64,000 nucleotides of DNA from Xenorhabdus mauleonii (lineage in GTDB: Bacteria > Pseudomonadota > Gammaproteobacteria > Enterobacterales > Enterobacteriaceae). Under the pieces are notes generated by a model. That model made no database searches, had not been told where the DNA came from, and saw only the letters and a list, made by a program, of their open reading frames with translations. A program made the translations under genes and the position numbers. Of this stretch, positions 42,533 through 54,186 are shown in pieces. Every line of letters begins with the position of its first letter. Position 1 is the first letter of the stretch. Location: assembly GCF_900113945.1 (NCBI RefSeq), contig NZ_FORG01000012.1, positions 1 through 64,000 of the forward strand, written 5' to 3'.

Positions 42533-43723
42533 TCAATTTACTGGTTTCTTTGAATGCAAACGTGCATCCACCCAAACTGGCACTAACGCAAGCATACCAA
42601 GCAAAGCACCAACCCAGCCGATGGAAGGTAAGCCGTACCCAGCCCCTATCGCAAACCCGCCCAATAGAGGTGCCAGTGTAATCCCCAGTTGAAATGCGGA
42701 AACATTGGTTGCCCCCGCCAGAGTCGGCGCATTTGCTGCGATGGTATAAACCCGGTTCATAACCGCTGGGTTCACAACAAAGCCAAACACCCCAAGCAAA
42801 AACACCAGACAAATTGTTGCGATCGTATGTTCAGCCCAAAAAGCCAAAGCAATAGAAATAATAATCATGCCGATAATGCCAATGGATAGCGTTTTGAACG
42901 GGTATTTATCTGCGGTACGCCCGCCTATGCTCAAGCCGATAAAAGCCCCGATCCCGAAAAGAGCCAAAACGGCCGGAACCCAATTTACAGCCAATTTGCT
43001 GACATCAATCAACAATGCGCCCAAATAACCAAATGTCGCCATATAAGCGGCTGTTGTTAGTAGTGTCGTCATATAAGCAACCCACAGTTTCGGTTGCTTC
43101 ATCACCTTCAATTCAGCGTCCAGTACAGACACATTTTCATGATTCTGCTGCATTTCAGGCAGCATAAACCATAATGCCACTGCAGCTACCGTTGTGGCTG
43201 CCGCCACGGCCCAGAAACCTGCCCGCCACCCTGCCATATCACTGATGACCGTTCCTAGCGGCCCACCAACCACCATTGCCAGACTCAGCCCACTGACAAC
43301 AACGGCCAAAGCTCTTGCGGTGCGATCCTGTGCCACTAAACTGACTGCCGTAGTCGCCGCCACGGCCCAGAATCCGGCATAAGCCACACCACTCACCACA
43401 CGCGCAATTACCAACGGCCAATAGCCGGGAGAAAGCATGCCGATCGCAGTGGCTATAACGAACAGCGCTTGGCTTATCAGCAGAGTTGATCGCCGCGGCC
43501 AACGCAATGTTGCAATAGCCAATGGCGGAGCACCGAACAACACTCCCACCGCAAATGCAGAAATCAACATGCCCGCAGAAGGCAAAGACACCTGCAAATC
43601 AACAGCAATCTTTGGCAACACCCCTGCAATCAAAAATTCCGAACTCCCCATGGCGAAAAGGCTTAAGCCCAGCAAATATACCGAAATAGGTATTTTTGAT
43701 TGCACTGCATTTGAAACAGACAT
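42533..43723 (-). CDS. MFS drug-efflux-type transporter (Cmx/CmrA, AraJ-like)
   Basis: This is a 12-helix major facilitator of the DHA1 type. FAMGSSEFLIAGVLPKIAVDL opens helix 1-loop and LAVVVSGLSLAMVVGGPLG fits motif C of antiporters, so it probably exports a small hydrophobic compound. Similarity by eye is to chloramphenicol-type Cmx/CmrA and AraJ-like carriers. I start at 43723 (MSVSNAVQSKIP) with TAGGAG upstream, giving 396 residues; the frame has 18 more upstream codons. No regulator gene is adjacent. Its substrate is unknown. Confidence 0.8.
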   Translation of the reverse strand: MSVSNAVQSKIPISVYLLGLSLFAMGSSEFLIAGVLPKIAVDLQVSLPSAGMLISAFAVGVLFGAPPLAIATLRWPRRSTLLISQALFVIATAIGMLSPGYWPLVIARVVSGVAYAGFWAVAATTAVSLVAQDRTARALAVVVSGLSLAMVVGGPLGTVISDMAGWRAGFWAVAAATTVAAVALWFMLPEMQQNHENVSVLDAELKVMKQPKLWVAYMTTLLTTAAYMATFGYLGALLIDVSKLAVNWVPAVLALFGIGAFIGLSIGGRTADKYPFKTLSIGIIGMIIISIALAFWAEHTIATICLVFLLGVFGFVVNPAVMNRVYTIAANAPTLAGATNVSAFQLGITLAPLLGGFAIGAGYGLPSIGWVGALLGMLALVPVWVDARLHSKKPVN

Positions 43724-43957
43724 AGGTGAACTCCTAAGTGTTTTGTTGAAATTATGTAATAAATAGCCATAGACCAATTGACTAAAGATAAATTACAACA
43801 TTATTATTCAAATAATCAATTGAATGTTTCACGGGGAATGCATTTACATTAATTAACATTAAAATTATGGCAAGGAAGCACATTCAACTTAAAAACTAAT
43901 TATTACACTGTTTTTAAAGAATAATATTTTATAAATATTAATTTTTTGGGGGAGTCA

Positions 43958-45484
43958 ATGATGAAAATAATTGAATACTTCAAACAACTACTCAATGGAA
44001 CACCTGACAATTATGATGCTATTGAATATGAAGGAGACTGGTGGACATGGGCTAAAGTACGTTCCTGTACAAATATGCTGGAAAACGCATTGATAGAAGC
44101 CGGGATTAAATCTTCAGAACGAATTGGCTTAATTTTAGAAAATCGTCCAGAGCATATTGCAACCACCTTGAAATTGTTAACAAAAAATATGCCAATTGTT
44201 GTTCTCAATCCATTACAACCAACATCCCGCCTTATAGAAAATATTACACGCCTAGATATAAAAATTATCATCGCAGGCACTGCACTACTGGCAGATAAAA
44301 AATTACTTGAAGAGATAATTAAAAATAGAATGATATTTAAATTAAGCCAGAGTGGAGAAACATTTTTAATCAGTAATAATAATAGTAATAGAACAAATAA
44401 AATTAATGATCAAAATATAGCTATCGAAATGCCAACTTCCGGAACCACAGGCACACCAAAACAGGTAAAACTCACCTATCAACAATTAGATAATGCTGTA
44501 ACTGCCAGTGTACAAGTTCCTAAAGATAAAACATTATTAATGGAGTCAGTGTCATTGGTCTCTATGCCAATGGTTCATATTTCTGGCTTGTGGGGCGTCC
44601 TGAGTGCATTATATACAGGCCGGAAAATAGTACTTATGTCGAAATTCGCCTTAATGCCTTGGATTGAGGCTGTTGAGCGTTATAAAATACGGGCGACATT
44701 TCTTGTCCCGACCGCTTTATATGACCTGCTTAATTCTAATGTCCCTCCAGAAAAACTTCATTCACTGAAAATTATTACAACTGGATCAACCTCTTGTTCG
44801 CCCAAGCTAATTGAACAGTTTTTTCTCCGGTACGGAATAAGAATATTAGCAACCTATGGAGCCACGGAATTCGCCGGAGCCATTGCCGGCTGGGATTCTG
44901 CTCTACATGAAAAATGGTGGAATAAAAAAGCAGGCAGTGCGGGAAAAACATATTCAGGCATTAAAATTAGAATTACAGGTGAATCAGGAGCTGAATTATC
45001 TGCGGGTCAAAAAGGATATCTCGAAGTTCTTACCAAACCCAATTGGCTTGTTAATCAATATGAATGGGTGCGTACTAACGATCTCGCTAATATTGATTCT
45101 GATGGTTTCCTATGGATTTTAGGAAGAAAGGATAACATCATCACACGTGGGGGTTTTAAAATCCAAACTGAAAAAATAAAAAATCTGTTAGAAACCCATC
45201 CTTCTGTAAAAGAAGCTGCTGTAATCGCCATTCCAGATACTCGACTCGGTTCTATCCCCATCGCTGTTATTGAAATATTGCCCAAATATCCGGTGCCCAG
45301 TATTGATGAATTGGTCAACCTATGCCGCAGAGAGCTGTTACCGTATGAAAGACCTTCACATCTTTTAATTGTAGATAAATTACCTAGAACACCATCATCC
45401 AAAATAGATCAAGTCGAACTTCTAAATATGACTGTTACTTCCTTAAAGAAAAGGCCTATCGCTAATAATAGCTATCAAGGATAG
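43958..45484 (+). CDS. AMP-forming acyl/aryl-CoA ligase-like enzyme
   Basis: The 508-residue protein belongs to the ANL (adenylate-forming) superfamily that activates carboxylic acids with ATP and usually passes them to CoA. The phosphate-binding loop is good (PTSGTTGTPKQV, about 160-171; Gln replaces the usual Gly). YGATEF (A5) and GRKDNIITRGGFKI (A8) are normal. The A7 motif is altered to WVRTNDLA where YxTGD is usual, and A10 reads PRTPSSKID with the catalytic Lys kept. No carrier domain is attached. GGGGGAG precedes the ATG at 43958. DNA here is strikingly AT-rich, one 60-base line having only 14 G or C. First gene of a possible three-gene operon. Confidence 0.85.
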   Translation: MMKIIEYFKQLLNGTPDNYDAIEYEGDWWTWAKVRSCTNMLENALIEAGIKSSERIGLILENRPEHIATTLKLLTKNMPIVVLNPLQPTSRLIENITRLDIKIIIAGTALLADKKLLEEIIKNRMIFKLSQSGETFLISNNNSNRTNKINDQNIAIEMPTSGTTGTPKQVKLTYQQLDNAVTASVQVPKDKTLLMESVSLVSMPMVHISGLWGVLSALYTGRKIVLMSKFALMPWIEAVERYKIRATFLVPTALYDLLNSNVPPEKLHSLKIITTGSTSCSPKLIEQFFLRYGIRILATYGATEFAGAIAGWDSALHEKWWNKKAGSAGKTYSGIKIRITGESGAELSAGQKGYLEVLTKPNWLVNQYEWVRTNDLANIDSDGFLWILGRKDNIITRGGFKIQTEKIKNLLETHPSVKEAAVIAIPDTRLGSIPIAVIEILPKYPVPSIDELVNLCRRELLPYERPSHLLIVDKLPRTPSSKIDQVELLNMTVTSLKKRPIANNSYQG

Positions 45485-45518
45485 TCATGAATAATTAACT
45501 CATAAAAAACTCATTATT

Positions 45519-46388
45519 ATGAATAAGATGAAATATTTTACCGTCACTAATGCCACTCTCCAAGATTGGAGAAAAATAATAGAATGGGGAAATAGGGAGG
45601 GATGGAATGCCGGTTATCAAGATGCTGCTTGTGCCTATCAGATTGATCCAAAAGGATTATTCATAGGCTGGCTGGATAATAAGATTATTGCCGCAGTTTC
45701 ATTGATCAATCATTCTGAAAAGTACTCCATATGGGGAAGTTATCTAGTTCACCCGGAGTATCGAGGGAAAGGATATGGAAAAGCGATTTGCAAAATAGCT
45801 CGGGTTCATGCAGGCAACCGCGAAATTGGTTCTAATGCCATGCCTGAAATGACATCCAATTATATGAAATCTGGGTTGGTTTCCGTCCATAAAATTATTC
45901 ACTATGCCGGGAGAGTTAAAAGAAAAAAAATCAACCCACTGAATAAAACGAATAAAATATTCCCCATTGAACCACATCATTTAGATATCATTACTGACTA
46001 CGATGCAATATTTTTCCCAACATCACGAAAACGTTTCCTGCAAAATTGGTTATTTTCTGCCGGACATAAATCGCATGTCAAATTTGATAATGGAGAAATC
46101 ACTGGTTACGGTGTGATTCGCCCTGCGCCACAAGGCTATAAAATTGGTCCATTGGCAGCCACGACACCAGATGATGCACAAGACCTCTTTGATTCATTAA
46201 CTGCTGATTTAAATCCAACCGACAACATTTCTATTTTTGTTCCTGACTATGCGAGTGAAAAATTCACTTCCTCTCTACGTTATAAAGGGCTTTCCAGTCA
46301 ATTTCATGTGGTATATATGCACAAAGGCAGCATATATAAAAACATGAATGAAATCATATACTCCCCTGCAAACTTAGAGATGGGTTAA
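45519..46388 (+). CDS. Double-domain GNAT N-acetyltransferase (YitH/Acetyltransf_18 type)
   Basis: The 289-residue protein has an N-terminal GNAT domain (about 5-130) with the acetyl-CoA loop VHPEYRGKGYGKAI. A second domain (about 150-285) contains GYGVIRPAPQGYKIGPLAATT, the pattern I know from YitH-like two-domain GNAT proteins. It should acetylate or acylate an amine, but the substrate is unknown. It lies 34 bp after one ligase-like gene and 46 bp before another, on the same strand, so it may use a product or CoA thioester of that pathway (inference). Confidence 0.82.
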   Translation: MNKMKYFTVTNATLQDWRKIIEWGNREGWNAGYQDAACAYQIDPKGLFIGWLDNKIIAAVSLINHSEKYSIWGSYLVHPEYRGKGYGKAICKIARVHAGNREIGSNAMPEMTSNYMKSGLVSVHKIIHYAGRVKRKKINPLNKTNKIFPIEPHHLDIITDYDAIFFPTSRKRFLQNWLFSAGHKSHVKFDNGEITGYGVIRPAPQGYKIGPLAATTPDDAQDLFDSLTADLNPTDNISIFVPDYASEKFTSSLRYKGLSSQFHVVYMHKGSIYKNMNEIIYSPANLEMG

Positions 46389-46434
46389 ATATGAACATTC
46401 AATATAATACTTAATTCTAGATAAGGTGAAAGCT

Positions 46435-47958
46435 ATGTCCCAAGAAAAACCAATATCTTATAATAATGAAAGAGTAGTATTTCCCTACAGTACCGGAGCC
46501 ATTCTAGAACGATGTAGTTTGACTTATGATCAAAACATAGCGGTTATATTTAATGATCATGAGATAACCTACCGAGAACAAATAATTCGTATTCGTCAAA
46601 GTGGGCAGGCATTGTTGCAGCTAGGGATGGTTAAAGGAGATAGAATCGCGCTATTGCTCCCCAATAGCCCAGAATTATTGAATATTTATTTTGGTGCCCT
46701 ATGGGCAGGTTTAGTTGTTGTTCCCTTATTTCCCAAAGGAAGCTTTATTGACCACTCCTTTATTATCCAAGATTCTGCTGCTCGGGCAGTGATATACGAT
46801 GGATACCTACATAATTTTGATGCTGAATTTGCTTTAAACGTAAATGATTTTATTCAATTAGCAAATAAACAACCTTCAGAAGCGAGAATACCTGACGTCA
46901 GTCCAATGGATCTATATGGCATTTTTTACGTCGGGGGAGATGACGGGCGTTTAAAAGGCGTATTGCATACACATGGGAGTTATCTGTCTTCCATTGCAGG
47001 ACAAATGATTGACATTGGACTTGGAGAGCAGGAAAGATTCGCTCATGTTGCACCAATTACCCATGCAGGTGGAATGTTCATCCTCCCTGTATGGATGAAA
47101 GGCGGAACCAATGTATTATTAAGTGGGTTTGATCCTGACAAACTGTTATACACCATTAATAAAAATAAAATTACATCTACAATGATGGTTCCAACCATGT
47201 TATATACGCTATTAGATAAATTGGAAAATAGCAGTAATGAATCACTTTCATTAACCAATATTATCTATGGAGTATCACCATTTCAACAAGATAGATTATT
47301 ACAAGCATTAGATATTTTCGGGCCTATATTCACTCAGGTTTATGGGATTACCGAAGCACCAAATCAATTAACAATATTAGATAAACATGAGCATTTTCAT
47401 GCATTGAAAACCAATAATTTTAAAAGACTCACCTCGTTAGGTCGAGCAGCGTCATTAACAGATATTAAATTAATCAATAATGAAAGCGTCAGCGATTTTC
47501 ATGGTGAAATGGTAATACGCGGCCCGCATATTACACTCGGTTATTGGAAAAGACCCAAAGAGACTCAAGAAGTTTTACGTGATGGTTGGTTATACACTGG
47601 AGATATCGTTACAAAAGATGAGCAAGGTTTTTTGTACCTAGTTGAAAGAAAAAAAGACATTATCATTTCTGGTGGATTTAACATTTATGCTAAGCATATC
47701 GAAGCAACATTACTACAACACCCTAAGATACAGATGGCAGCAGTGATTGGCGTACCTGACAATAAATGGGGTGAATTAGTAAAAGCAATTATCTCCCCTG
47801 TTCCAAATGTTAACATTACTGAAGCAGAGATTATTGCTTGGGCTAAAGAGCGATTAGGTTCAATATATACTCCAAAAGCTATCAGCTTTGTTGATCAGAT
47901 TCCTGTCACCGAAGAGGGAAAAATAGAAAAATCAGAATTGAAGAAGCATTTAATATAA
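46435..47958 (+). CDS. AMP-ligase-family protein with degenerate phosphate loop
   Basis: This 507-residue protein is a second ANL-superfamily member. Motifs A5 (YGITEAPN), A7 (WLYTGDIV), A8 (ERKKDIIISGGFNIY) and A10 (VTEEGKIEK) are normal. The A3 phosphate loop, usually TSGTTGxPKG, reads VGGDDGRLKG (about 166-175): the hydroxyl residues and proline are gone and two aspartates appear, while the Lys remains. It may be inactive, regulatory or altered in catalysis. The start at 46435 (MSQEKPIS) has AAGGTG upstream; a GTG three codons earlier is in frame. It closes the AT-rich ligase-GNAT-ligase set. Confidence 0.83.
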   Translation: MSQEKPISYNNERVVFPYSTGAILERCSLTYDQNIAVIFNDHEITYREQIIRIRQSGQALLQLGMVKGDRIALLLPNSPELLNIYFGALWAGLVVVPLFPKGSFIDHSFIIQDSAARAVIYDGYLHNFDAEFALNVNDFIQLANKQPSEARIPDVSPMDLYGIFYVGGDDGRLKGVLHTHGSYLSSIAGQMIDIGLGEQERFAHVAPITHAGGMFILPVWMKGGTNVLLSGFDPDKLLYTINKNKITSTMMVPTMLYTLLDKLENSSNESLSLTNIIYGVSPFQQDRLLQALDIFGPIFTQVYGITEAPNQLTILDKHEHFHALKTNNFKRLTSLGRAASLTDIKLINNESVSDFHGEMVIRGPHITLGYWKRPKETQEVLRDGWLYTGDIVTKDEQGFLYLVERKKDIIISGGFNIYAKHIEATLLQHPKIQMAAVIGVPDNKWGELVKAIISPVPNVNITEAEIIAWAKERLGSIYTPKAISFVDQIPVTEEGKIEKSELKKHLI

Positions 47959-48053
47959 GAATAAGAATAAGAATTAAAACAATAATAGAGTCACAAACTA
48001 TTTTTAAAATTACATCATTGCCAAAAAAAATAATTTTTTATTGTTATGCTAAA

Positions 48054-48089
48054 ATATCAAATACTCGGTATGCGCTGAGTATTTGATAT
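48054..48089. repeat. 13-bp perfect inverted repeat after the ligase set
   Basis: ATATCAAATACTC (48054-48066) and GAGTATTTGATAT (48077-48089) flank ten bases, 96 bp after the second ligase gene. No T run follows, so it may be a terminator stabilised otherwise, or a protein-binding site. Confidence 0.5.
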
Positions 48090-48128
48090 ATAATCCAAAG
48101 AAGTCATTATCTTAAACAAAGACCATAA

Positions 48129-48240
48129 TTACCCTCTCTGCCCAGCTCGTCCTCTTTGAACGTTGATCGTTTTCTGGCTAGATTTGTTTACTCCCAATTC
48201 ATTGGCTTCTCTGCCCGCTAGAAACAATTTAAAAAATAAT
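48129..48240 (-). pseudogene. Orphan coding-like fragment of unknown family
   Basis: On the minus strand a frame reads FFKLFLAGREANELGVNKSS followed by QKTINVQRGRAGQRG and a TAA stop at 48129. It has no visible start or ribosome site and its base composition is higher in G and C than the flanks. It looks like the C-terminal end of a lost gene. I do not recognise the family. The rest of 47959-48492 is AT-rich and probably carries the promoter of the following MFS gene. Confidence 0.3.
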
Positions 48241-48492
48241 ATTGCAAAAAAATGATAACAATAATGTTAATAAATTTTTTTACCAACACCAAATTTATTC
48301 ACATTCTTTGTAGCAATCACTCAACGATTAATATCGGTTAAACAACTTGCAGGAAAGATATGCTATATCAAAAAATAACACACAAATAATAAATAAGTAT
48401 GACTTTATACATAAAAGTGACATACATGCATTTCGCATGTACTATTACCGCTATTTATCAAAAATACATTTTTAATAAAAATAAGGATAGTA

Positions 48493-49731
48493 ATGAAAAA
48501 TAATATTTCATTTTTTTTATATCAACTCTCTGATATTTTGTTCACTTCTTCCACGCGAGCATTTGGAATGTTGTTCTCATGGTGGATGATTGAAGTACTA
48601 AATCTGGAATTTCAACTTGGATGGTTTATTTTTTCATCATGGTTCCTGCAAGTCTTATTCCTTGTTTTCATGAGCGACCTTGGGGATAGGTTCAATAAAA
48701 AGAACATTGTTCTAATTTGTATAATCCCTATCGCATTGCTTTTCATCCTGTCTAATTTCATAGATAAAAATCTATATATGCCATTAGGCATAATCTATAT
48801 TTTCGCGTCTATTTCAGCCATACTCATTCAGCCAATAGGAACAAGTATCCTGCCGGAAATAAGCAATAAAAACAAGCTAGAATCTTCTTTTAAATATAGA
48901 GGAATGGTTAACTCAGTTAATATCATCCTTGGCCCCGCAATATCTGGCATAGTGATCCATTACTTAAACATTAATGGAGCTTTGATTTTTATTTCTTCAA
49001 TGTCTATCTTATCCATAATCGGCTTTTATTGTGTGCAAAACAAACAAAAAGAAAAATCATCACAACAGCATAAAAGCAGTGTAGGAAATATCAGGATAAT
49101 TACGAAAAACCCAACAGAAGCCAGTCTGGTGATTGTTTCTTCTTTTTTCAATTTTACTGTCGTTCCACTTGTGACTTATATCACGCCACTTATCATCATC
49201 AATGAATTTAAGCTAAGTGCTTTACAAGTTGGGATTGCTGAAGCAACTTTTGGTATCGGCATGATGATTGGCAGCACGATTGTTATTAAACCCATGAACA
49301 AGATTTTCTGTAAAGCACACAGTGCTTTTATTTCCGCTTTCACGATTGCAGCATGCATAACAGGAATATCCACAGCGGGTTCATTGGTTGAGTTATGTGG
49401 TTATATGCTGCTCAGTGGCGTAGGGTTGGTTATTTATAATATTAATACTACTTCAATTCGATGCCTTGCAACGCCGGAACCTTATCGCAATACAATGGAA
49501 TCTAAATTCCTTGCCATTTGCATAGTATCAATACCATTGGGAATGTTATCTGCAACCTACCTGATAGAAAGTTATGATATTAGAGTCCTGTTAATTATCT
49601 TTTCAGCGTTGATGGGCTTAATGTCATTTTTCGTTCTATTCTCCCCTAAATATGTTGAGATCTCAAAAATGCCGGAAGCCCAATTAGAGGGCTATTACGA
49701 AAAGATATATCCCGATGCTTACCGTTCATAA
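48493..49731 (+). CDS. MFS exporter of the ligase/GNAT cluster
   Basis: This 412-residue, roughly 12-helix protein belongs to the major facilitator superfamily, with the loop 2-3 motif DLGDRFNKKNIVLI (about 60-73). Overall it resembles MFS_3 exporters such as EntS and MefA-type carriers. It follows the ligase set on the same strand after 534 bp and shares its AT-rich composition, so it could export the product; it may have its own promoter. Start ATG at 48493 with AAGGATAG just upstream. Substrate unknown. Confidence 0.8.
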   Translation: MKNNISFFLYQLSDILFTSSTRAFGMLFSWWMIEVLNLEFQLGWFIFSSWFLQVLFLVFMSDLGDRFNKKNIVLICIIPIALLFILSNFIDKNLYMPLGIIYIFASISAILIQPIGTSILPEISNKNKLESSFKYRGMVNSVNIILGPAISGIVIHYLNINGALIFISSMSILSIIGFYCVQNKQKEKSSQQHKSSVGNIRIITKNPTEASLVIVSSFFNFTVVPLVTYITPLIIINEFKLSALQVGIAEATFGIGMMIGSTIVIKPMNKIFCKAHSAFISAFTIAACITGISTAGSLVELCGYMLLSGVGLVIYNINTTSIRCLATPEPYRNTMESKFLAICIVSIPLGMLSATYLIESYDIRVLLIIFSALMGLMSFFVLFSPKYVEISKMPEAQLEGYYEKIYPDAYRS

Positions 49732-49771
49732 TATAAATCAATACGTAACATAATTGATTTCCTGCTTTGAT

Positions 49772-49804
49772 AAAAGGTCATCCGCATAATGCAGATGACC
49801 TTTT
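49772..49804 (+). terminator. Bidirectional terminator between MFS gene and betT
   Basis: AAAAGGTCATC (49772-49782) and GATGACCTTTT (49794-49804) form an 11-bp stem with T runs in both directions, between the convergent genes. Confidence 0.88.
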
Positions 49805-49816
49805 ATCGCTTGAGTT

Positions 49817-52707: not shown

Positions 52708-54186
52708 ATGACCCATTTTGGATTGCAGAAACTTTATATTCATGGGGCTTATGTTGATAGCTCCCAACCTGATAATCCGATATTTGATGCAATCAACCCC
52801 GCTAATAGCGAAATTATTGCTCAATTTCAGTCCGCGACGGAGCAAGATGTTGAGCTGGCCGTCGAAAGTGCCATTAAGGGGCAAAAAATCTGGGCGGCCA
52901 TGACAGCAGTTGAACGCTCGCGGATTTTGCACAAGGCCGTGAATATTTTGCGTGAGCGCAATGATGAACTGGCAGAACTGGAAACACTGGATACCGGCAA
53001 AGCCTTTTCTGAAACTCAGGCGCTTGATATTGCCTCTGGTGCCGATGTATTGGAATATTATGCAGGCTTGATCCCTGCACTTGAAGGGCAGCAAATTCCA
53101 CTGCGCGAATCATCTTTCGTATATACACGCCGTGAGCCGCTGGGTGTTGTGGCTGGGATTGGTGCATGGAACTACCCTATCCAAATCGCCCTGTGGAAAT
53201 CCGCCCCTGCACTTGCAGCCGGCAATGCCATGATTTTCAAGCCCAGTGAAGTCACATCCCTCACTACCCTCAAATTAGCCGAAATTTATACCGAAGCCGG
53301 TTTGCCTGATGGCGTGTTCAACGTCCTGACTGGTGCGGGCCATGAGGTTGGTCATTATCTGGCAACTCATCCCAAAATCGCCAAAATGTCTTTCACCGGC
53401 GGCACAGTCACTGGCAAAAAAGTCATGGCAAATGCATCTGGCTCCAATTTAAAAGAAGTCACAATGGAGCTGGGTGGAAAATCCCCTCTGATCATCTTTG
53501 ATGATGCCGATCTGGATCGTGCAGCAGATATTGCCATGATGGCAAATTTTTTCAGCTCCGGTCAGGTTTGTACCAACGGAACACGTGTTTTTGTTCCCAA
53601 GGCACTGCTTTCACAGTTTGAGGACAAAATTCTTGAACGAGTGAAACGCATTCGAATTGGTTCACCTCTCGATCCCAATACCAATTTTGGCCCGGTTGTG
53701 AGTTTCCCTCACATGGAATCTGTTTTGCGCTATATCGAGAGTGGCAAAAACAGCGGCGCCCGTTTGCTCTGTGGTGGTGAACGTCTGCTGGAAGGCGAAT
53801 TGGCAAAAGGCGCGTTTGTTGCCCCCACAGTGTTCAGTGATTGTACTGATGACATGTTGATTGTACGGGAAGAAATTTTTGGCCCAGTGATGAGTATTCT
53901 GACTTATGAAACAGAAGAAGAAGTCATTGCCCGGGCCAATAACACGCATTACGGCCTAGGCGCCGGATTGGTGACAAAAGATCTTTCCCGTGCACACCGT
54001 GTTATCCACCAACTGGAAGCAGGAATTTGTTGGATCAATACATGGGGAGAATCTCCGGCCGCAGTGCCTGTCGGCGGTTATAAACACTCCGGCGTCGGTC
54101 GTGAAAATGGCCTGATCACACTACAAAATTACACACAAATTAAATCAATACAGGTGGAATTGGGAGAGTTTGAATCCCTATTTTAA
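52708..54186 (+). CDS. betB: BetB, betaine aldehyde dehydrogenase
   Basis: BetB oxidises betaine aldehyde to glycine betaine with NAD(P). The 492-residue product shows the aldehyde dehydrogenase signatures [16 protein letters not shown] (Glu, about 252) and [16 protein letters not shown] (catalytic Cys, about 286), and the end [20 protein letters not shown] typical of BetB. AAGGAG precedes the ATG. betA starts 28 bp later. Confidence 0.97.

Follow-up and report, generated by a model that had tools for sequence, protein, structure and literature searches.

A recurrent acyl ligase–tandem GNAT gene pair in Xenorhabdus and its possible link to dithiolopyrrolone antibiotics

A ligase–acyltransferase–ligase operon in Xenorhabdus mauleonii

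We analysed a 64,000-nucleotide stretch of DNA from Xenorhabdus mauleonii (positions 1 to 64,000 of contig NZ_FORG01000012.1, hereafter the window), in which two ANL-superfamily ligase genes, lig1 and lig2, flank a gene for a double-domain GNAT acyltransferase. The ligase–GNAT–ligase operon is real, and its conserved core is the lig1–GNAT pair, a recurrent, putative acylation module that one strain carries on a plasmid and of which other genomes keep decayed remains; all three genes together are seldom found. An earlier note, made from the sequence alone, had described this arrangement on one strand, and Pfam matches bear it out (PF00501 with PF13193, and PF00583 with PF18014, all on the plus strand). 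The genes and boundaries are as follows.

43958–45484, plus strand: lig1, predicted ANL acyl-CoA (coenzyme A) ligase (PF00501 2.1e-53, PF13193 6.3e-14)
45519–46388, plus strand: tandem GNAT acyltransferase of HolE-like architecture (PF00583 and PF18014)
46435–47958, plus strand: lig2, FadD8-like ANL ligase with a degenerate P-loop (PF00501 4e-55)
43830–48401, no strand: stretch bearing lig1, GNAT and lig2 only, between two homology ends
42533–43777, minus strand: mfsUp, Cmx/CmrA-type MFS transporter gene, divergent from lig1 (NCBIfam cmx_cmrA)
48493–49731, plus strand: resident MFS gene, judged to lie outside the set (adjoins betT in 12 of 12 other loci fetched)

The gaps of 34 bp (lig1–GNAT) and 46 bp (GNAT–lig2) given earlier hold for a lig2 start at ATG 46435; the second shrinks to 37 bp if lig2 starts at GTG 46426, from which its longest frame runs. 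For lig1, ATG 43958 and ATG 43961 are both possible starts, and the longest frame begins at TTG 43946. On the left, homology to the mfsUp-side DNA of another genome (G005) stops near 43829; on the right, homology to the MFS-side DNA of genomes G026 and G011 begins near 48402–48404. No insertion sequence or integrase was seen inside the set, and such repeats as were detected are short.

Counts of 14 G or C in the 60-nucleotide line at 44341 and 29 in that at 53221 were reproduced, and the average G+C contents of lig1, GNAT and lig2 are 0.375, 0.385 and 0.367 (window, 0.425). We rejected low G+C content as a mark of foreign origin, because the resident MFS gene (0.354) and its orthologue (0.341) are lower still. 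Scans returned 24 promoter sites (24.9 in shuffled sequences) and 6 terminators (3.5 in shuffled sequences). The earlier observation that no carrier protein is nearby also stands: none of the 81 PF00550 matches in the genome falls in the window, and the nearest on the same contig lies at 103 kb.

The lig1–GNAT pair is the conserved core

Among 30 Xenorhabdus genomes, lig1–GNAT occurs in three (that of the window, X. griffiniae BMMCB and X. thuongxuanensis 30TX1). Xenorhabdus sp. TH1 carries a fourth locus on a plasmid of 252 kb (57–58% identity). The two genes are adjacent in all four loci found (window; X. griffiniae, L021; X. thuongxuanensis, L020; TH1 plasmid, L051). The X. griffiniae and X. 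thuongxuanensis GNATs are 56–57% identical to that of the window, each adjoining a lig1 relative, and overall the relatives of the pair share 56–58% identity with it. The synteny query proposed in the earlier note, which took the three enzymes together, is answered in part: lig1–GNAT co-occurs in four of four loci; all three genes stand intact together in the window alone, and G005 has a lig1–lig2 relic.

Intact lig2 was found only in the window, that is, in 1 of 30 genus genomes (E ≤ 1e-60), where at most the 50 best candidates were scored and absence is weaker evidence, and in 1 of 350 class genomes (E ≤ 1e-85). A lig1 match at E ≤ 1e-70 occurs in 1 of 295 family genomes, namely the window's; in these larger groups the lig1 and lig2 searches scored the best 4–5 candidates per genome, and absence there is again weaker evidence. 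Two others of 394 order genomes carry a GNAT at E ≤ 1e-40 (34–36% identity), and the 20 kb around each yielded no match to lig1 at E ≤ 1e-20 (one stretch being partly masked). At the class level (369 genomes), 11 others have such a GNAT at E ≤ 1e-40; ten show no lig1 homologue within ~1.5 kb and the eleventh lies beside a fragment of a non-ribosomal peptide synthetase (NRPS)-like adenylation gene. The tandem-GNAT family as a whole is broad, matching 64 plasmid records at E ≤ 1e-5. A genome-contig scan returned no relative with the GNAT query, and two Xenorhabdus loci plus two weak matches (31–36%) with part of lig1. A near-identity DNA search of Escherichia coli genomes gave no match.

In the three other loci the GNAT is followed by a convergent stand-alone thioester reductase gene (TIGR01746), an RND pump and a methyltransferase (L020:2682–9569, L021:2985–9835 and L051:14959–21803), and no lig2 was found in these blocks. 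An amidase gene (L142:2554–4014) lies just outside the DUF2938 and ArsR-type genes that mark the block edge in X. thuongxuanensis.

Features of the ligases and the tandem GNAT

lig1 retains the P-loop (TSGTTGTPK), YGxTE, the A7 Asp (TND for TGD), A8 (GR-KD/DN) and the C-terminal Lys. With these core motifs complete, it is predicted to act as a CoA ligase. Its closest relative outside Xenorhabdus in the plasmid collection is 45% identical and lies within a Streptomyces acyl-CoA gene cluster. Against NCBIfam PRK07529 (cut-off 632 bits) lig1 scores 173 bits, while the acyl-CoA synthetase of the thiomarinol plasmid pTML1 scores 677 bits.

The two ligases are only 25% identical and therefore did not arise by recent duplication. 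The P-loop of lig2 reads YVGGDDGRLKG, compared with YTGGTTGKPKG in FadD8; the remaining ANL motifs are present (A8 is ERKKD). With VGGDDGRLKG at this position, lig2 departs from the full motif set of an active CoA ligase. The change should harm ATP binding, and because of its degenerate P-loop lig2 would have an accessory role or have lost its function.

The GNAT is a tandem protein, with PF00583 and, in its C-terminal half, PF18014, as in HolE of the thiomarinol pathway, and its RGKGYG loop is invariant across four aligned relatives. It shares 26–30% identity with the acyltransferases encoded within dithiolopyrrolone clusters of the genus. A first tree (35 rows, after one duplicate was dropped and without L086) placed the lig1-linked GNATs beside these acyltransferases with support of 90/95 and a long-branch warning. 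In a second, unrooted tree (37 rows) both groups came together at 100/98 without such a warning; seven rows had been dropped (four near-copies, two long branches and L106), L100 and L107 were not included, and the GNATs of G003 and G016, from other contexts, were counted with the dithiolopyrrolone group on their first-tree placement. The approximately unbiased (AU) test rejected a constraint that grouped the lig1-linked GNATs and 12 rows of other contexts (p-AU 0.0004), for a group defined only after a tree had been seen. Both trees place the window GNAT beside, not inside, the clade of in-cluster acyltransferases. On whether it is closer to that clade than to other tandem GNATs, we read the trees as neutral to mildly favourable. 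The GNAT is HolE-like in architecture, and we propose that lig1–GNAT would work like TmlU/HolE, the thiomarinol ligase and acyltransferase, with no claim of identity as such. A structure predicted from three sequences had a mean predicted local distance difference test score of 50.7, and its fold search returned tandem and single GNATs alike; it was left unused.

A divergent exporter gene and relics of the module

mfsUp scores 444 bits against cmx_cmrA (cut-off 400). It is also divergent beside lig1 in X. griffiniae (72% identity), and the TH1 plasmid carries a 5′ relic of it beside lig1; the X. thuongxuanensis locus is the X. griffiniae locus minus mfsUp. Intact or as a relic, mfsUp thus accompanies lig1 in three of the four known lig1–GNAT loci. 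We propose it as the export partner of the set, a predicted function. Its context suggests an exporter of an antibiotic cluster, and a label as a resistance gene may be mistaken.

Relics of mfsUp lie between dinB and the resident MFS gene in G026 and G019, and G004 has mfsUp only at the site. In G005 the order is dinB, mfsUp, a 5′ part of lig1 fused to a 3′ part of lig2 (54% over 61 residues for the latter), then betT; therefore mfsUp, lig1 and lig2 shared the window's site in a second species. In G022 the first 117 nucleotides of lig1 remain beside mfsUp, where X. griffiniae holds a 10-kb block. The reading of G022 and G005 as untouched empty sites was dropped on account of these relics, which show that the module or parts of it once occupied both sites in more species than now.

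The downstream MFS gene is resident

The earlier note had counted the MFS gene downstream of lig2 as the exporter of the set and had overlooked mfsUp. The downstream gene matches 20 of the 30 genus genomes at E ≤ 1e-30, 16 (window included) at 64–100% identity and four as paralogues at 38–41%. We fetched 12 of the 19 other matching genomes, and in all 12 loci the gene adjoins betT. Its other neighbour is dinB in 11 loci, three of them with 2.2–2.7 kb of other DNA between; the twelfth ends at a contig end. In those 11 loci the upstream side can be seen, and none of lig1, GNAT and lig2 was found on it. This synteny led us to reject the gene as product exporter. It shows no association with the dithiolopyrrolone core described below (Fisher p 0.96; 20 genomes, four of them with paralogues).

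Between the resident MFS gene and betT lies a 19-nucleotide inverted repeat (49769–49807, 95% complementary), perhaps a terminator that serves both genes. An MFS gene with 39–40% identity to the resident one is common to plasmids of Xenorhabdus sp. TH1 and TCT-1 (L108:13901–16230 and L109:13640–16230). The TH1 copy is preceded by genes for a putative HEXXH peptide-modification protein and a carboxymuconolactone-decarboxylase-family protein, and the TCT-1 copy by unnamed genes of similar size.

Flanking genes are tied to the dithiolopyrrolone core

In seven genus genomes we examined core clusters encoding an NRPS (condensation–adenylation–carrier), a GMC oxidoreductase, a thioesterase, an acyl-CoA dehydrogenase, a globin and a PF18014 GNAT. 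They match the hol, hlm and hom genes in the table consulted from PMC3826145, and genes of pTML1; in the portion consulted of PMC9946207, such clusters in 12 Xenorhabdus strains are assigned to xenorhabdins. With the GMC gene (E ≤ 1e-150) as marker, the core is present in 16 of the 30 genomes. It occurs in all three lig1–GNAT genomes (p 0.14), in all eight with mfsUp (p 0.0022) and in 16 of the 19 with DUF2938 (p 6.7e-6), these Fisher values ignoring shared ancestry. Conversely, DUF2938 is found in 16 of 16 core genomes compared with 3 of 14 without the core, and in 11 of these 16 it lies no more than 14 kb from the marker.

Position points the same way. In G008 and G018 mfsUp abuts the dithiolopyrrolone NRPS or core. 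The core has DUF2938 and an ArsR-type gene at its side in G008, G018, G022 and X. griffiniae, and these two genes stand at the edge of the lig1–GNAT block in X. thuongxuanensis, where this is the sole DUF2938 match. A thioredoxin gene lies near the core in G018, G022, G012, X. griffiniae and X. thuongxuanensis, and near the lig1–GNAT block in the last two. The genes flanking lig1–GNAT are thus tied to the core by co-occurrence or position. The DUF2938 protein of G018 is 58% identical to one beside the pTML1 acyl-CoA synthetase, putatively TmlU; pTML1 was viewed outside 12–45 kb, and TmlU and HolE were assigned there by annotation and gene order rather than by name. The DUF2938 protein (L042:10973–11470) is itself a candidate self-protection or transport gene. 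The core of X. thuongxuanensis has no GNAT of its own; the core clusters lacking an in-cluster acyltransferase are L070, L071 and L072 (X. thuongxuanensis, G005 and G012).

A proposed function and its rivals

lig1 would activate a free carboxylic acid through an acyl-AMP to an acyl-CoA, and the tandem GNAT would pass the acyl group on to a primary amine. Most likely this acceptor would be the pyrrothine (dithiolopyrrolone) core, which a xenorhabdin-type cluster in another part of the genome makes; the product would be an acyl variant additional to those made by the in-cluster acyltransferase. mfsUp would export the product or protect the cell, and lig2 might supply a second acid or, if its damaged P-loop has cost it adenylation, play an accessory part. 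A carrier-free set for activation, transfer and export, as in the earlier note, remains the best reading, with lig1 and GNAT adjacent throughout; its exporter had been misassigned. That lig1 and GNAT are functionally coupled is probable. The dithiolopyrrolone core is a quite possible acceptor, short of a probable one, and we put forward the whole, acylation of an amine, perhaps that core, with export by mfsUp, as a tentative proposal. A bolder version is unlikely: a transferable hybridisation cassette, made separately from that of thiomarinol, which forms hybrid antibiotics by joining the dithiolopyrrolone core with acids that other pathways supply and has its own exporter, its P-loop-dead lig2 taking over the acyl group or gating lig1.

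Several points weigh against acylation of the dithiolopyrrolone core. The three-of-three co-occurrence is not significant alone (p 0.14), mfsUp abuts the core in just two of its eight genomes, and the window set and core lie on separate contigs (C72 and C81), so that the window GNAT is not encoded in the core cluster. The window genome and X. griffiniae retain an in-cluster acyltransferase; G005 and G012 lack one, yet have no lig1–GNAT, and no GNAT relic was seen in G005. The TH1 chromosome fell outside the core search. lig1 lies outside the TmlU subfamily, below the PRK07529 cut-off, and the 27% identity of GNAT to HolE does not exceed the 28–37% to GNATs of other contexts. The 100/98 split unites two long branches, and the late definition of the AU-test group counts here too. 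Finally, simple acylation calls for none of the reductase, RND and methyltransferase genes present in the other three loci.

One rival keeps this ligase–GNAT chemistry but has another N-acyl amide formed on an amine unrelated to the core (amino acid, polyamine, amino sugar or peptide), the dithiolopyrrolone link reflecting a shared genomic hot spot or ancestry. The breadth of the tandem-GNAT family on plasmids, the absence of a lig1 homologue within ~1.5 kb of ten of the 11 other class GNATs (the other beside an NRPS-like adenylation gene), the acyl-CoA gene clusters around the closest plasmid-collection relatives of lig1, and the thioester reductase and methyltransferase of three loci all fit this account. 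It leaves unexplained the core-associated flanks, namely mfsUp in the window and X. griffiniae, thioredoxin in X. griffiniae and X. thuongxuanensis, and DUF2938 with ArsR in X. thuongxuanensis; we regard it as possible but rather doubtful. Self-protection, in which the GNAT would inactivate an antibiotic by acylating it, in the manner of OatA with odilorhabdin, while the ligases supply or recycle the acid, gains from the efflux-type gene adjoining the set and from OatA, a Xenorhabdus GNAT described in part of PMC8749412 as conferring self-resistance. OatA uses acetyl-CoA, however, and needs no dedicated ligase, whereas the presence of two ligases points to a specialised acyl donor; we consider self-protection very unlikely.

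Chance neighbours without joint function would accommodate the single intact lig2 among 30 genomes and the accessory genes that vary among loci. Pairing of lig1 and GNAT in four of four loci at 56–58% identity, and lig1 standing before lig2 in the G005 relic, speak against chance, and we find it hardly credible. Rated lower still is acid scavenging or catabolism, with the ligases feeding acyl-CoA to beta-oxidation and the GNAT incidental. The closest plasmid-collection relatives of lig1 do sit with acyl-CoA dehydrogenase, crotonase and thiolase genes, but no such genes were recognised among the listed open reading frames and features around the four loci (a Pfam scan of part of the frames), and GNAT stays with lig1 in all four.

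Comparison with known systems

The ATRed pyrazine synthetase of Xenorhabdus indica contains a carrier domain. Its combination of adenylation and reductase, as outlined in PMC7586950, recalls the reductase-bearing lig1–GNAT loci; unlike them it is a minimal NRPS, and the TH1 stretch has no annotated carrier protein. On the part of PMC7586950 consulted, ATRed was set aside as an account of the block in the other loci. OatA, from odilorhabdin producers, is likewise a Xenorhabdus GNAT tied to an antibiotic, a likeness of description rather than of sequence; it differs as an acetyl-CoA user for which the portion consulted of PMC8749412 mentions no ligase partner. The xenorhabdin and holomycin clusters (HlmA, Hom3 and HolE) share the PF18014 GNAT, and their core genes occur in the same genomes. 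In contrast to the window, where the set lies outside the core cluster, the clusters examined have no ligase gene beside the in-cluster acyltransferase.

No published description of this ligase–GNAT pair was found in the open-licence literature, among the titles and starts of abstracts listed. The earlier statement that the cluster has no described counterpart was nevertheless too strong. TmlU and HolE perform such coupling in thiomarinol biosynthesis in Pseudoalteromonas sp. SANK 73390 (plasmid pTML1): in the part of PMC5577590 consulted, TmlU makes acyl-CoA from the free acid, HolE joins the acyl group to holothin, and both are broad in their substrates, a promiscuity considered useful for joining two drug cores. 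Earlier, TmlU had been likened to amide synthetases (PMC3069032 and PMC3826145, both in part). Like the window pair as proposed here, TmlU/HolE unites an ANL CoA ligase with a tandem GNAT (PF00583 and PF18014), a free acid with an amine, and uses no carrier protein (PMC5577590, in part); a DUF2938 gene stands beside the pTML1 synthetase, as its 58% relative does beside several Xenorhabdus dithiolopyrrolone clusters. The window pair differs in that lig1 belongs to another ANL subfamily, its GNAT is only 27% identical to HolE, and the two genes lie side by side at a distance from the core cluster, accompanied by a second, P-loop-degenerate ligase. The relics indicate that the module was gained or lost within the genus, which bears on the origin of xenorhabdin acyl variety. 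A second such pair, of separate make and in core-bearing bacteria, would render the coupling rule testable and might provide enzymes that prefer other acids.

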